Positions 28,745 to 38,914 of a stretch of 64,000 nt of DNA are shown piece by piece. The notes under the pieces are model-generated. The model did no database searches. It was not told the DNA's origin and saw nothing but the letters and a program-made list of their open reading frames with translations. The DNA is from Solirubrobacterales bacterium (GTDB taxonomy: Bacteria; Actinomycetota; Thermoleophilia; Solirubrobacterales; 70-9), in NCBI GenBank assembly GCA_023958085.1, contig JAMLGI010000006.1, positions 1-64,000 on the forward strand, written 5' to 3'. The first letter of the stretch is position 1; the number at the start of each line of letters is the position of its first letter. The translations under genes and the position numbers were made by a program.

Positions 28745-28818
28745 CGCGGGGTGGAGCAGTCAGGTAGCTCGTCGGGCTCATAACCCGAAGGTCGCAGGTT
28801 CGAATCCTGTCCCCGCTA
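28745..28818 (+). tRNA. Initiator tRNA-fMet (anticodon CAU)
   Basis: The 5' C1 faces a non-pairing 3' base (the initiator hallmark of an unpaired 1-72), the anticodon stem has three G:C pairs (GGGCTCATAACCC), and the D-arm is GGAGCAGTCAGGTAGCTC. The T-arm is GCAGGTTCGAATCCTGT and the discriminator A, with no CCA. Its 3' end is the sequence that recurs at 30.2, 33.2, 35.3 and 38.9 kb. Confidence 0.93.
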
Positions 28819-28821
28819 TTC

Positions 28822-28855
28822 GAAAACCCCCTCTCCACAGGGGGTTTTCGTTTTT
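28822..28855 (+). terminator. Intrinsic terminator of tRNA-fMet
   Basis: GAAAACCCCCT pairs with AGGGGGTTTTC around a short loop and is followed by GTTTTT. It directly abuts the tRNA. The same hairpin is copied nearly exactly at 30261-30288 and, degenerately, at 38886-38911. Confidence 0.9.
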
Positions 28856-28888
28856 AAGGGGATGAGTGCCGGAGCGGGCGATCCGTGA

Positions 28889-35389: not shown

Positions 35390-37057
35390 TTACGCCAGTG
35401 GCGTTTCCTGCATCGGATCTGCCTTGGATGAACCAGACGGTCTTGCCACCGGGTCTTCGCTGCGTCTGGGGATGCGGGTCATGGCGCGTTCGGTCAGGGC
35501 GGTGATGGTGAGGGAGGGGTTGACCCCGAGGTTGGTGGGGAGGACCGATCCGTCGCAGACCATCAGGTTCTTGTAGCCGTGGACCTTGAGGTCGGCGTCG
35601 ACCACTCCCTCGTCTGCGGTGGCTCCGATCACGGCGCCACCGAGAAAGTGGGCGGTGACCGGGGTGCACATCGTCGCCTCGAAGAGCGAGGACTGGGCCG
35701 TGCCGCCCATCTTTTCGGCCAGTCGGCGGGCGACGTCGTATGCCGCCGGGATCGGCTTCGGGCGGGGCGAGCCGGGTTCGGGATCGGTCTGGAGAACAAC
35801 GGTGCCGTCACGCAGCCGTTTCCAGGGGCGCAGCCGGATCGAAGAGTCGAGCGACTGCATCACGATGAACAGCAGGGTCCGTCGTGACCAGTTGCGCGGG
35901 TTGCTCGCACGCAGCAGGGACCGTGGGTCGCGGAGGGCCGCGGCGGCGAACCGCAGGGGCTGCACCCGCCTCGTTCCGGGGTCGACCAGCAGCGAGAACA
36001 TGGAGGAGTTGAAGTCCCCGCCGGTCCCGTAGATCACCGGCTCCACATGCGTGTTCTCGTCGAGCCAGATACTGGAGGAGATGCACACCGAGTCGGAGAG
36101 ATCGAAGCGGTCATCCGGGGCGGTCACGGCAAGCACCGACTCGGAGTTGGTCCGGACCTTCTCGCCCAGGCGGGGGGAGAGAACGTTGAGCGAGCCGTTG
36201 AGCCGTGAACGCTGCAGCAGCTTGTTCGTCCCGAGGGTCCCGGCCGCCACGGCCACGGCGCGGGCGGTCATGGTCCGCTGGCCCCGCATCACCGCCTTGC
36301 CCGGGGTGACAGTTGTGACCGCGAACCCTTCGCTGCCGTCGCCGCTGCGGCCGAGCGGCCGGATGTCGGTGGCGAGACGTTCCGGCAGGATCTTCACCCC
36401 GTGGCGTTCCGCGAAGTAGAGGTAGTTCTTGGTGAGGATGTTCTTCGCGCCCACCTGGCAGCCGACCATGCAGTTGCCACAGTTGGTGCAGCCGGTGCGG
36501 GGTGGTCCGGCGCCGCCGAAGTAAGGGTCGGGAACCGTCTCACCGGCCTTGCCGAGGAAGGCACCGACGGTGGGTTTTGTATAGGTGTCGGCGACCTCGA
36601 GATCCTCGGCGACCTCCTTGAGCAGACGGTCGCCGACGGTTTCACGGCTGTAACGCATCACACCGAGCATGCGTTCCGCCTCGGTGTAGTGGTCCGGCAG
36701 CTCCGTTCGCCAATCGGCAAGCCCGGCCCACTGGGGATCATCAAAGGTGCGATCCGGTGCACGCAGGAGAACCATCGAGTAGACCAGTGAGCCGCCGCCG
36801 ACGCCGGAGCCGGACAGCACCGTGATGTCCTTGAACGGCGAGACCCGCAACATGCCGCGCAGCTTCAGCATCGGCATCCAGATCGACCGGTTGATCTGCG
36901 CGGTCCGATCCGGCATGTCGACATCTTCATACCGGCGGCCGCACTCCAGCACGGCCACGCTGTAACCCTTCTCGGCCAGGCGCAGGGCGGCGGTGCTGCC
37001 GCCGAAACCGGACCCGACGACGACGTAGTCGTAGTCGTACCGGGCCACCGGACTCAC
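35390..37057 (-). CDS. GMC-family FAD-dependent oxidoreductase (cholesterol oxidase-like)
   Basis: Oxidises alcohols with FAD. The Rossmann motif is VVVGSGFGGSTAALRLAEKG (residues 12-31). GSGVGGGSLVY, a CTNCGNCMVGC cysteine cluster (about 195), AVAAGTLGTNKLL and the C-terminal GVNPSLTITALTERA complete the fold. The Cys cluster is typical of the bacterial subgroup near cholesterol oxidase and of long-chain alcohol oxidases. The start is the GTG overlapping the stop of the upstream aldehyde dehydrogenase by four bases, so alcohol and aldehyde oxidation are made together. Confidence 0.88.
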   Translation of the reverse strand: MSPVARYDYDYVVVGSGFGGSTAALRLAEKGYSVAVLECGRRYEDVDMPDRTAQINRSIWMPMLKLRGMLRVSPFKDITVLSGSGVGGGSLVYSMVLLRAPDRTFDDPQWAGLADWRTELPDHYTEAERMLGVMRYSRETVGDRLLKEVAEDLEVADTYTKPTVGAFLGKAGETVPDPYFGGAGPPRTGCTNCGNCMVGCQVGAKNILTKNYLYFAERHGVKILPERLATDIRPLGRSGDGSEGFAVTTVTPGKAVMRGQRTMTARAVAVAAGTLGTNKLLQRSRLNGSLNVLSPRLGEKVRTNSESVLAVTAPDDRFDLSDSVCISSSIWLDENTHVEPVIYGTGGDFNSSMFSLLVDPGTRRVQPLRFAAAALRDPRSLLRASNPRNWSRRTLLFIVMQSLDSSIRLRPWKRLRDGTVVLQTDPEPGSPRPKPIPAAYDVARRLAEKMGGTAQSSLFEATMCTPVTAHFLGGAVIGATADEGVVDADLKVHGYKNLMVCDGSVLPTNLGVNPSLTITALTERAMTRIPRRSEDPVARPSGSSKADPMQETPLA

Positions 37058-38655
37058 ACCCGGGGGATTCGGCGCAGGATTCTGAGGCCCAGAGTCATCA
37101 CTCTGGCGTAGGGCTCGGCCGGGGTTCCGGCGTGTGGTGTCAGCGGCATCAGTCGCTGGGCGGAGACGGTCTGGGCCTCGGTGTACTTGAGGATCCCCTG
37201 TGCACCATGCCGGCGTCCCACCCCGGACTGTTTCATCCCGCCCATCGGAGCGGAGATCGAACCGAACGCGGCCGCGTACGGCTCGTTGATGTTCACCGTG
37301 CCCGCCTTGATCCGGGCCGCGACCCGGCGTGCCTTCGCGATGCTCCCGGAAAAGATGCTGGCGTTGAGCCCGTAGTCGGAATCGTTGATCTGCTCAAGCG
37401 CCTCATCCACGTCGTCGTACGGGTAGACCTCGATCAGCGGGCCGAAGGTCTCGTTCGCGTGGCAGGTCATGTCCGGGGTGACGCCGGTGAGCACGGTCGG
37501 CTCGAAAAACATGGGACCGGCTTCCGGCCGGGTCTTGCCACCGGCCGCGACCGTGGCACCCTTGGCGACGGCATCATCGAGATGGGCGATCGTCGTCTCA
37601 AGCTGTTTCTGCGAGATCATCGAGCCGATGTCGGCGCTCCAGTCGAGGCGGCCACCGAGCTTCAACCGGCCGATCCGTTCGGCCATGCGCTTGACGAACT
37701 CGTCGTACATGGAGCGATGGACGTAGATGCGTTCCATCGCGATGCAGAGCTGGCCGGCGTTGCCGTAGGAGCCGGTGATCGCCCCCTTGACCGTACGCTC
37801 CAGTTTGGCGTCGGGCAGAACCAGCATCGCGTTCTTGCCGCCCAGCTCCATCGAGCAGCCGATCAGGCGTTCACCGCAGCGGGCTGCCAGTTTGCGGCCG
37901 GTCGCGGTCGAGCCGGTGAACATGAGGAAGTCCACCTGCTCCACGATCGCGCCGCCGACCAGGGGGCCATCCCCGGTGACGACCTGGGCCAACCCCGGCG
38001 GCAGTCCGGCTTGCTCCAGCAGCTCGAAAGCCCAGAGTGCCGAAAGCGGCGTCTGAGCGTCCGGTTTGACGACCACCCCGTTACCGGCAACCAGGGCCGC
38101 AAGGGCGTCGGTGGCACCCATCGTGAGCGGATAGTTCCAAGGGGTGATGAAACCGCAGACGCCGACCGGGACGTGGCGCTCCCAGGTGCTCGTGAGCGCC
38201 GGGGTGGCCCCGGCCCGACGGCGGGAGCGCAGGTGTGTCGGCGCGTGCTTGCCGTAGTAGCGGGCGGTCGAGGCGGTCGCCATCACCTCCTCGAACGCAT
38301 TCAGACGTGACTTGCCGCTCTCAAGCTGGATCAGGTCCAGGACCTCGCGTTGACGGGAGAGCAGCAACGCATGAAAACGAAGCAGAACACGGGCACGTTT
38401 CCGTGCCGACCAGCCGGTCCATTCGACCTGAGCCTCCCGTGAGCGCCGGATTGCCGCCTCAACGTCCGGTGACTCACAGGACGGCAGCGATGCCACAAGC
38501 TCACCCGTCACCGGCGAGCGAACCTCGATCCGCTCCGCAGTACCGTCAGCCACACCGATGCGTCGAACGAGACGTCCGATCTGTTCGGCCCGCTCCCCGG
38601 TGAGCAGCCGGTCGGTGGACTCATCAAGCGGGACGGAGAGGGCACTTGCGTCCAT
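37054..38655 (-). CDS. NAD(P)-dependent aldehyde dehydrogenase (succinate-semialdehyde dehydrogenase-like)
   Basis: A 533-residue ALDH-superfamily enzyme. Motifs: VGVCGFITPWNYPL, cofactor-binding FTGSTATGRKLA, general-base Glu in SMELGGKNAM, the catalytic Cys in GNAGQLCIAMERI and ETFGPLIEVYPYDD. PMGGMKQSGVGRRHG near the end is the subgroup pattern of GabD2-like enzymes. It has an N-terminal extension of about 35 residues. Coupled with the GMC oxidoreductase, suggesting alcohol to aldehyde to acid conversion of an unknown substrate. First gene of the pair; no terminator between. Confidence 0.9.
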   Translation of the reverse strand: MDASALSVPLDESTDRLLTGERAEQIGRLVRRIGVADGTAERIEVRSPVTGELVASLPSCESPDVEAAIRRSREAQVEWTGWSARKRARVLLRFHALLLSRQREVLDLIQLESGKSRLNAFEEVMATASTARYYGKHAPTHLRSRRRAGATPALTSTWERHVPVGVCGFITPWNYPLTMGATDALAALVAGNGVVVKPDAQTPLSALWAFELLEQAGLPPGLAQVVTGDGPLVGGAIVEQVDFLMFTGSTATGRKLAARCGERLIGCSMELGGKNAMLVLPDAKLERTVKGAITGSYGNAGQLCIAMERIYVHRSMYDEFVKRMAERIGRLKLGGRLDWSADIGSMISQKQLETTIAHLDDAVAKGATVAAGGKTRPEAGPMFFEPTVLTGVTPDMTCHANETFGPLIEVYPYDDVDEALEQINDSDYGLNASIFSGSIAKARRVAARIKAGTVNINEPYAAAFGSISAPMGGMKQSGVGRRHGAQGILKYTEAQTVSAQRLMPLTPHAGTPAEPYARVMTLGLRILRRIPRV

Positions 38656-38850
38656 GGGTCAAGTTTACCCAACGATCCGGTATCGCCAGATCACGCATGG
38701 GACCGTGAACAACGCTTGGTTTCGGGACTCCGGATCGGTCGCTGGCGCCCCGGGATTGAGACCCGTGGAAGGCAACCTCTGCCTGTACGCAATCGATCGG
38801 CTACCGCGCGCCGTTTCAGCGATGTCATCTGGCGATTGTGGATCCCGCCG
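38656..38850. other. Gene-free stretch upstream of the ALDH/GMC pair
   Basis: This holds the promoter side of the aldehyde dehydrogenase gene. No ORF with coding character, no structured repeat. The stretch after copy E (38915-39101) is also empty apart from a tandem GGTGATTCGAT at 39084-39113 that overlaps the next start. Confidence 0.4.
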
Positions 38851-38914
38851 CCCCCCGGGAAACGGATCGGGCCCCGCTATTCAAGAATCTCCTCTCCACA
38901 GGGGGTTTCCTGTT
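38851..38914. repeat. tRNA-fMet 3'-end/terminator duplicate (copy E)
   Basis: GGGAAACGGATCGGGCCCCG and CTATTCAAGAAT are followed by CTCCTCTCCACAGGGGGTTT, close to copies A and B including the hairpin loop. It lies in a 446-base gap (38656-39101) that holds no credible gene, and is the last copy I can see before chromosomal-type genes resume. Confidence 0.7.

Follow-up and report, generated by a model that had tools for sequence, protein, structure and literature searches.

The 64,000-nucleotide window analyzed here (positions 1–64,000 of contig JAMLGI010000006.1, assembly GCA_023958085.1, from a Solirubrobacterales bacterium) carries a tRNA-fMet gene whose 3' end recurs several times downstream. 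The gene, a tRNA-Met(CAT) called by ARAGORN, lies at 28745–28818 on the plus strand and represents the target (attB/attL side) of integration, as integrases of related genomes end antisense in it. It is directly followed by a tail and terminator (copy A, 28819–28861), whose antisense frame, NENPLWRGGFRIAGTGFEPATFGL, probably corresponds to an integrase-like 3' end entering the tRNA gene. Further downstream are five distal copies (B, C, C', D, and E), all on the plus strand like copy A, which divide the interval between tRNA-fMet (28745) and a VanZ-like gene (39102–39494, plus strand) into five cargo segments. The VanZ-like gene is the first gene past the stack and serves as the far landmark; it has homologues in 20 of 41 genomes, and its name is taken from the original prediction, a model's reading of this DNA from the sequence alone. 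That prediction correctly recognized that the tRNA end recurs, but it listed four distal copies and four segments in 10 kb; copy C' (34434–34514) had been missed and adds a junction.

Copy B (30190–30292) consists of a left arm, the tRNA 3' end, and a terminator, and its antisense frame is still open, ending in ENPLWRGGSRIAGTGFVSRGDARIRERVAT and a stop codon. Its positions 30238–30292 (55 bases) are 96% identical to the 3' end of the tRNA with its terminator (E = 8e-20 in a genome-wide search). Copy E (38841–38914), found by nhmmer and repeat comparison, is the outermost junction and has a decayed arm (ARSVSRG) and a terminator resembling the one in copy A; positions 38872–38908 match the tRNA 3' end region (E = 2.5e-7, genome-wide search). 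Terminator sequence of copy A is common to B and E. Copies C and D retain only the final tRNA bases, preceded by GGATCGGGC. Copy C (33133–33250), which overlaps the 3' end of a PIN gene, comprises a decayed arm with the tail piece EARSVFQGDRRRI, the tRNA end, and a different hairpin, while copy D (35295–35380, located by a covariance model) has an arm with the decayed tail EIAGARSVSRSDPSRI and no matching terminator. Copy C' is an arm with the antisense tail RARSVSLGGTRILERVAA and a stop codon. The earlier description of every copy as the last 17 bases of the tRNA plus its terminator therefore fits only copy B in full. Copies C and D are 74% identical over 110 nucleotides (33114–33223 and 35262–35371). 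This stretch includes the 3' end of the PIN toxin gene, and copy D seems, from its sequence, to keep a remnant of a second PIN-like gene. A PIN-like stretch precedes an arm in another genome as well (G012, L048 7424–7617).

The left arm, which the original prediction had noted as a 16-nucleotide motif absent from the tRNA, is real but longer, at about 85 nucleotides in the covariance model. This model was built from sites of related genomes, with seeds that contained no window sequence. Searched against the whole 2.44-Mb genome, it gave three matches, all at the tRNA-fMet locus: 30190 (E = 3e-11), 34434 (E = 3e-5), and 35295 (E = 1e-4). Copy C was weak (E = 0.09); an nhmmer profile matched C and E, both of which are seeds of that profile. 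A smaller search gave a weak additional arm match on contig C12, where a broken tyrosine integrase and a tRNA-Val are nearby. Across the order, model R1 placed arm sites in 17 of 121 genomes and 12 of 45 genera. The 64 sites considered below are a hand-kept list out of 82 model matches that does not include copy E; the 18 left out comprise palindromes read on the opposite strand, hits at tRNA-fMet and at copies of it, and weak matches, among them one possible real arm (L043 12884).

Known islands at the ssrA gene of Dehalococcoides (PMC3146451) led us to search for large serine recombinases. In a relative, G013, a PF07508 match adjoins tRNA-fMet: an intact protein of 589 amino acids that carries a Resolvase and a Recombinase domain and is distantly similar to YokA, a recombinase of solved structure (E = 5e-11). 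Its 3' end enters tRNA-fMet antisense and terminates in VVPKDIAGAGFEPATFGL (IAGAGFEPATFGL) before the stop codon, and integrases of relatives in families f1, f2, and f3 likewise end antisense in the tRNA. At arm sites, the same frame enters the left arm instead, ending in TVTLTNIAGARFVSQGDARILERLAA beside a decayed copy in G013 and in VTLTNIAGAGFVSQGDARILERVATRG in G005. Since one frame enters the tRNA at the target but the left arm at arm sites, the arm is the integrase's own tail and the att site lies inside the integrase gene. Judged from its reading frame, the left arm is, in antisense, the C-terminal tail of a large serine recombinase (ARFVSxGDARIxERVAA, followed by a stop codon). The suggestion that the arms derive from attP/attR is accordingly upheld and refined, as the arm encodes an integrase tail, most likely that of a large serine recombinase.

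Indeed, the antisense strand reached a best match of at least 8 of 18 residues to the tail consensus at 59 of the 64 sites, compared with 3 of 640 random stretches and none of the 64 sense strands. In a DNA-only alignment of 50 of the 64 sites, which omits 14 sites without the center motif, the ratio of nonsynonymous to synonymous polymorphism (pN/pS) was 0.68 in the coding frame versus 1.31 and 1.09 in the other frames, and stops occurred in 2 of 50 rows versus 18 and 8 of 50. Earlier codon tests (59 rows; 52 rows, with 0.51 versus 1.04 and 1.40) had picked rows by peptide match and are biased. Seven pieces of the G013 integrase were found within 600 bases of arm sites in five genomes (G003, G005, G007, G013, and G071). 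Its C-terminus also adjoins tRNA-fMet or a copy of it in further genomes, G002 and G005 among them, although the shortest of these matches are partly the antisense tRNA itself.

The integrase was matched in 73 of 232 genomes of the order, many of the matches being distant serine recombinases. The 30 loci fetched contain 12 matches that extend to residue 580: eight end in a called tRNA-Met, one in tRNA-Tyr, two have the same antisense peptide, and one has a free tail. A tree of 19 serine recombinases groups eight of them in a single clade (support 100/99); six of these have tRNA-fMet ends (in G058, a tRNA-Met is close by), one (G114) has no such end, and one is at tRNA-Tyr. In G099, a single contig contains an intact integrase that ends in tRNA-fMet and, 26.8 kb away, a tRNA-end copy at which the antisense frame goes on into a different tail, AGFEHHPATEYRFVVVRELA and a stop codon. 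This tail resembles the one at a shorter copy 5.5 kb nearer the tRNA. The architecture of integrase, tRNA-fMet, and tail thus recurs in this distant branch. A search for integrases at tRNA-fMet, as had been proposed, thus yielded intact ones in relatives that end antisense in the gene (G013 and G099). Large serine recombinases using tRNA genes are not known to be common, and a clade of them is provided here. In the window, neither PF00589 nor PF07508 detected an integrase, in agreement with the original prediction that no intact one remains; the PF00589 matches of this genome are on other contigs, and PF07508 has none in the genome.

The locus was also compared in relatives. The distance from tRNA-fMet to the VanZ-like gene is 10.3 kb in this genome (G000), 15.9 kb in G001, and 42.0 kb in G013, the three genomes with both landmarks on one contig. 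The intervening content differs and is reordered among the three, so that the region is variable, as had been anticipated, and segment order is not shared. An element that runs from AbiEii and AbiEi (Pfam names) to a membrane protein lies directly 3' of tRNA-fMet in G001, while in G013 it is directly behind an arm copy about 27 kb downstream of the tRNA, and the homology between G001 and G013 stops at the tRNA-end repeat. This supports stacked integration. The membrane protein precedes a TPR gene in G001 and follows it in G000. The 315-residue membrane protein of the window is 93, 92, and 89% identical to its counterparts in G013, G014, and G001, whereas VanZ shares 71, 68, and 72% identity with those of the same genomes, core identity there being gauged on VanZ alone. 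The core neighbor of the tRNA, which we take to be Ppx-like, is 63–75% identical in five other genomes of the genus. The cargo is modular.

On the seven contigs where both arm sites and the tRNA were located, 22 of 22 sites have the same direction as tRNA-fMet or tRNA-Arg; one further site in G063 is on the same strand as tRNA-Met(CAT), and no opposite case occurred for tRNA-Met. The sites are often 1–3 kb apart and shortly behind stop codons, with one orientation per array. Many contain a core palindrome of about 48 bp. Hairpin z-scores against single-base shuffles go down to −6.4, with about half of the 24 sites tested near zero, including all four window sites. In 50 of the 64 sites, the left half pairs better with the right half of its own site (mean 8.72) than with a swapped one (7.14), a difference reached in 0 of 20,000 permutations and, with permutation within genomes, at P = 0.0009; as the sites are related to one another, these P-values are rough. 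A scan of named genomes returned 53 stretches, of which 20 have titles naming Thermoleophilia, Thermoleophilaceae, or Solirubrobacterales and place such sites in metagenome assemblies of these groups; 31 others were taken for chance by title only, without inspection. A match on a viral contig (L205) was judged to be chance, as it lies inside open reading frames (ORFs) with no tRNA nearby. In G081, a genome of another family, 11 arm sites occur on six contigs (L132–L137), several with a core, CCTGTATACGTCATACCC, that is unlike tRNA-fMet and, by its sequence, points to another target. Elsewhere, large proteins of one blastp cluster stop about 35 bp before arm sites (L052 11610–14807, L084 13147–15363, L094 621–2639, and L080 755–2242); where scanned, they have a common C-terminal CARDB/HYDIN-like domain and differing N-terminal parts.

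The window copies contain pieces of tail and the window no integrase body; therefore, the locus is very probably a stack of decayed islands that large serine recombinases of one clade inserted successively at the 3' end of tRNA-fMet. The integrase genes of this clade would contain attP within their own 3' end. Upon integration, the element would restore the tRNA 3' end, and the integrase tail would be swapped. At attL, the integrase body would remain beside the tRNA and continue antisense into it, while at attR the last ~17 integrase codons would be left at the far end, before the displaced tRNA 3' end. Later islands would enter at the tRNA and push earlier ones outward, so that each junction would keep one left arm, i.e., a severed tail. 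In this genome, the integrase bodies would have been lost, leaving the cargo and five tail scars, most of them decayed. The sequences show the arm to be tail codons, intact integrases in relatives to end in tRNA-fMet, and the cargo to be modular and reordered; that this integrase carried out the insertions, in which order, and at which base the strands crossed over is inferred.

Several observations weigh against this history. Searches with PF07508 and with the integrase turned up no serine integrase in this genome, only scars, and the link is made through relatives; PF07508 matches occurred in 4 of 33 genomes, three of the four being among the 17 site-bearing ones. Arm sites turned up in only those 17 of the 121 genomes of the order. 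In at least 21 of the 64 sites ("class 2/3"), the core does not resemble tRNA-fMet, and the rule used left another 16 unclassed. Within the window, copies C, D, and E are decayed, C scoring 7 of 18 and D 5 of 18 against the tail consensus, and copy E was not detected by the covariance model. The tRNA-like stretch in B begins further left than in C–E, which bears on the crossover base or on a later exchange. No empty site with a single copy was found among the relatives, and most of the genomes compared are draft metagenome assemblies. Finally, tyrosine-integrase islands occupy the same tRNA-fMet in relatives.

This last point raises the alternative that the locus is a stack of ordinary tyrosine-integrase islands at tRNA-fMet, with the arms being P-arm sequences. 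Four genomes (G012, G027, G033, and G028; L047, L048, L057, L058, and L076) have 42–44-bp repeats of the tRNA-fMet 3' half and tyrosine integrases on the same contig, and in this genome a broken tyrosine integrase (C12, L207 3849–8233) lies near tRNA-Val and the weak arm site. Yet the window copies are without the 42–44-bp repeat, PF00589 gave no tyrosine recombinase in the window, and the arm codes in frame with a serine recombinase. Moreover, G013 has five arm sites but just two PF00589 matches, both high-scoring, and on this ground a tyrosine integrase was rejected as the main partner; we regard the alternative as unlikely. The second tyrosine integrase of the genome (C29, L206 143–1388) is 37 bp from tRNA-Thr, where no arm site was found. 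The tRNA-fMet hotspot has two kinds of users, serine- and tyrosine-integrase islands. In G005, the 3' half of a tRNA-Arg(ACG) recurs every ~171–182 bp (L089 48–250 and L090 5976–6345), as if stacked, nearly empty units were present.

Far less probable is an integron-like array, in which the arm sites would be hairpin sites of cassette recombination and the tRNA the anchor. The palindromes with their hairpin z-scores, the better pairing of halves within sites, the single orientation per array, and the 1–3 kb spacing close behind stop codons would fit such an array. None of eight recombinases, however, exceeded the TIGR02249 cut-off of 265 (four scored 30–61 bits, the best 60.9, and four had no such hit), and the arm is coding; this reading was rejected on both counts. 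Serine-integrase sites are also palindromic, with a central dinucleotide. An equally slight probability attaches to ancient duplications of the terminator or tRNA end without site-specific integration, which would account for the terminator common to A, B, and E but not for segments that differ and are reordered in the comparable relatives (G001 and G013), for three genome-wide model matches that all fall at this locus, or for arms that are coding and shared across families.

For the stack of serine-integrase islands, the closest precedent in the open-access papers searched is that of the Dehalococcoides ssrA islands. As described there (PMC3146451), these islands stand in tandem downstream of an RNA gene and are bounded by direct repeats of the gene's 3' end; left of each repeat is a conserved motif that the RNA gene itself lacks, and about half of the islands have no integrase. 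The 3' end of dsiB is described there as always overlapping attL and reading into the RNA gene, with DsiB possibly fully functional on the circle only. The present locus is similar in its five distal tRNA-end copies, its variability among relatives, and its left motif absent from the tRNA, and in relatives the 3' end of a large serine recombinase, assigned by its Resolvase and Recombinase domains, likewise overlaps attL. It differs in target (tRNA-fMet) and host (Thermoleophilia); in addition, the left motif here consists of conserved integrase tail codons, whereas DsiB is reported as divergent in that portion.

In tycheposons, or additive flexible genomic islands, cargo also accretes downstream of a tRNA gene with tRNA-end repeats, as outlined in PMC10872708; as described there, they use a tyrosine recombinase (XerD), whereas the partner here is a serine recombinase. 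Islander-type tyrosine-integrase islands (PMC4383910) resemble the present locus in that the element restores its target gene and a displaced fragment marks the far end, but the integrase belongs to another superfamily, and the tyrosine islands at the same tRNA in relatives have a longer repeat. Integrons likewise have palindromic sites arrayed in a single orientation and carry mixed cargo; here, no integron integrase was among the eight tested and a serine integrase gene contains the site.

The tail swap may, tentatively, be a built-in switch: the circle would encode an integrase ending in ARFVSQGDARILERVAA (competent), the integrated form would end in the antisense tRNA, AGFEPATFGL (restrained), and a neighboring scar could return the tail. 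Such a switch would explain purifying selection on severed tail codons. The idea of the Dehalococcoides authors that the integrase is fully functional on the circle only would gain codon-level support here, and this old guess becomes directly testable. What had been a hotspot with repeats becomes a system in which the type of integrase and the target are named and which leaves a diagnostic, searchable scar. Such a scar, being the tail of the integrase, allows fossil islands to be mapped after loss of the integrase.

The segments between the copies carry diverse cargo. Just 3' of the tRNA, an IS3-type transposase remnant (28898–29044, plus strand), rightly recognized earlier, shares 86% identity with G003 DNA where an rve/HTH_21 gene ends. 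Segment 1 encodes a PD40 beta-propeller protein (29019–30002, plus strand; PF07676). The stretch 30062–30152 was rejected as a transposase, since its homologue sits in a TetR-like gene of G001. Segment 2 contains a TPR protein (30332–31102, minus strand; Pfam), with blastn/blastp homologues in the islands of G013 and G001, two plus-strand ORFs to which the ORF list and Pfam scan assign no function (31206–31712 and 31782–32147), and a toxin–antitoxin pair on the plus strand, made up of a Phd/YefM-like antitoxin (32357–32740; match below the Pfam cut-off) and a PIN-domain toxin (32747–33154; PF13470). The 315-residue protein of segment 3 (33331–34278, plus strand), a probable membrane protein, has no Pfam or NCBIfam match. 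In the Pfam scan, the three remaining products, all on the minus strand, were a protein with a weak FlgD-Ig match in segment 4 (34584–35177) and, in segment 5, a GMC oxidoreductase (35390–37057), with a homologue behind an arm copy in G013, and an aldehyde dehydrogenase (37054–38655). Past the stack, the gene at 40248–40862 contains repeats with a nine-base period (40261–40539) and apparently encodes a Gly-rich repeat protein.

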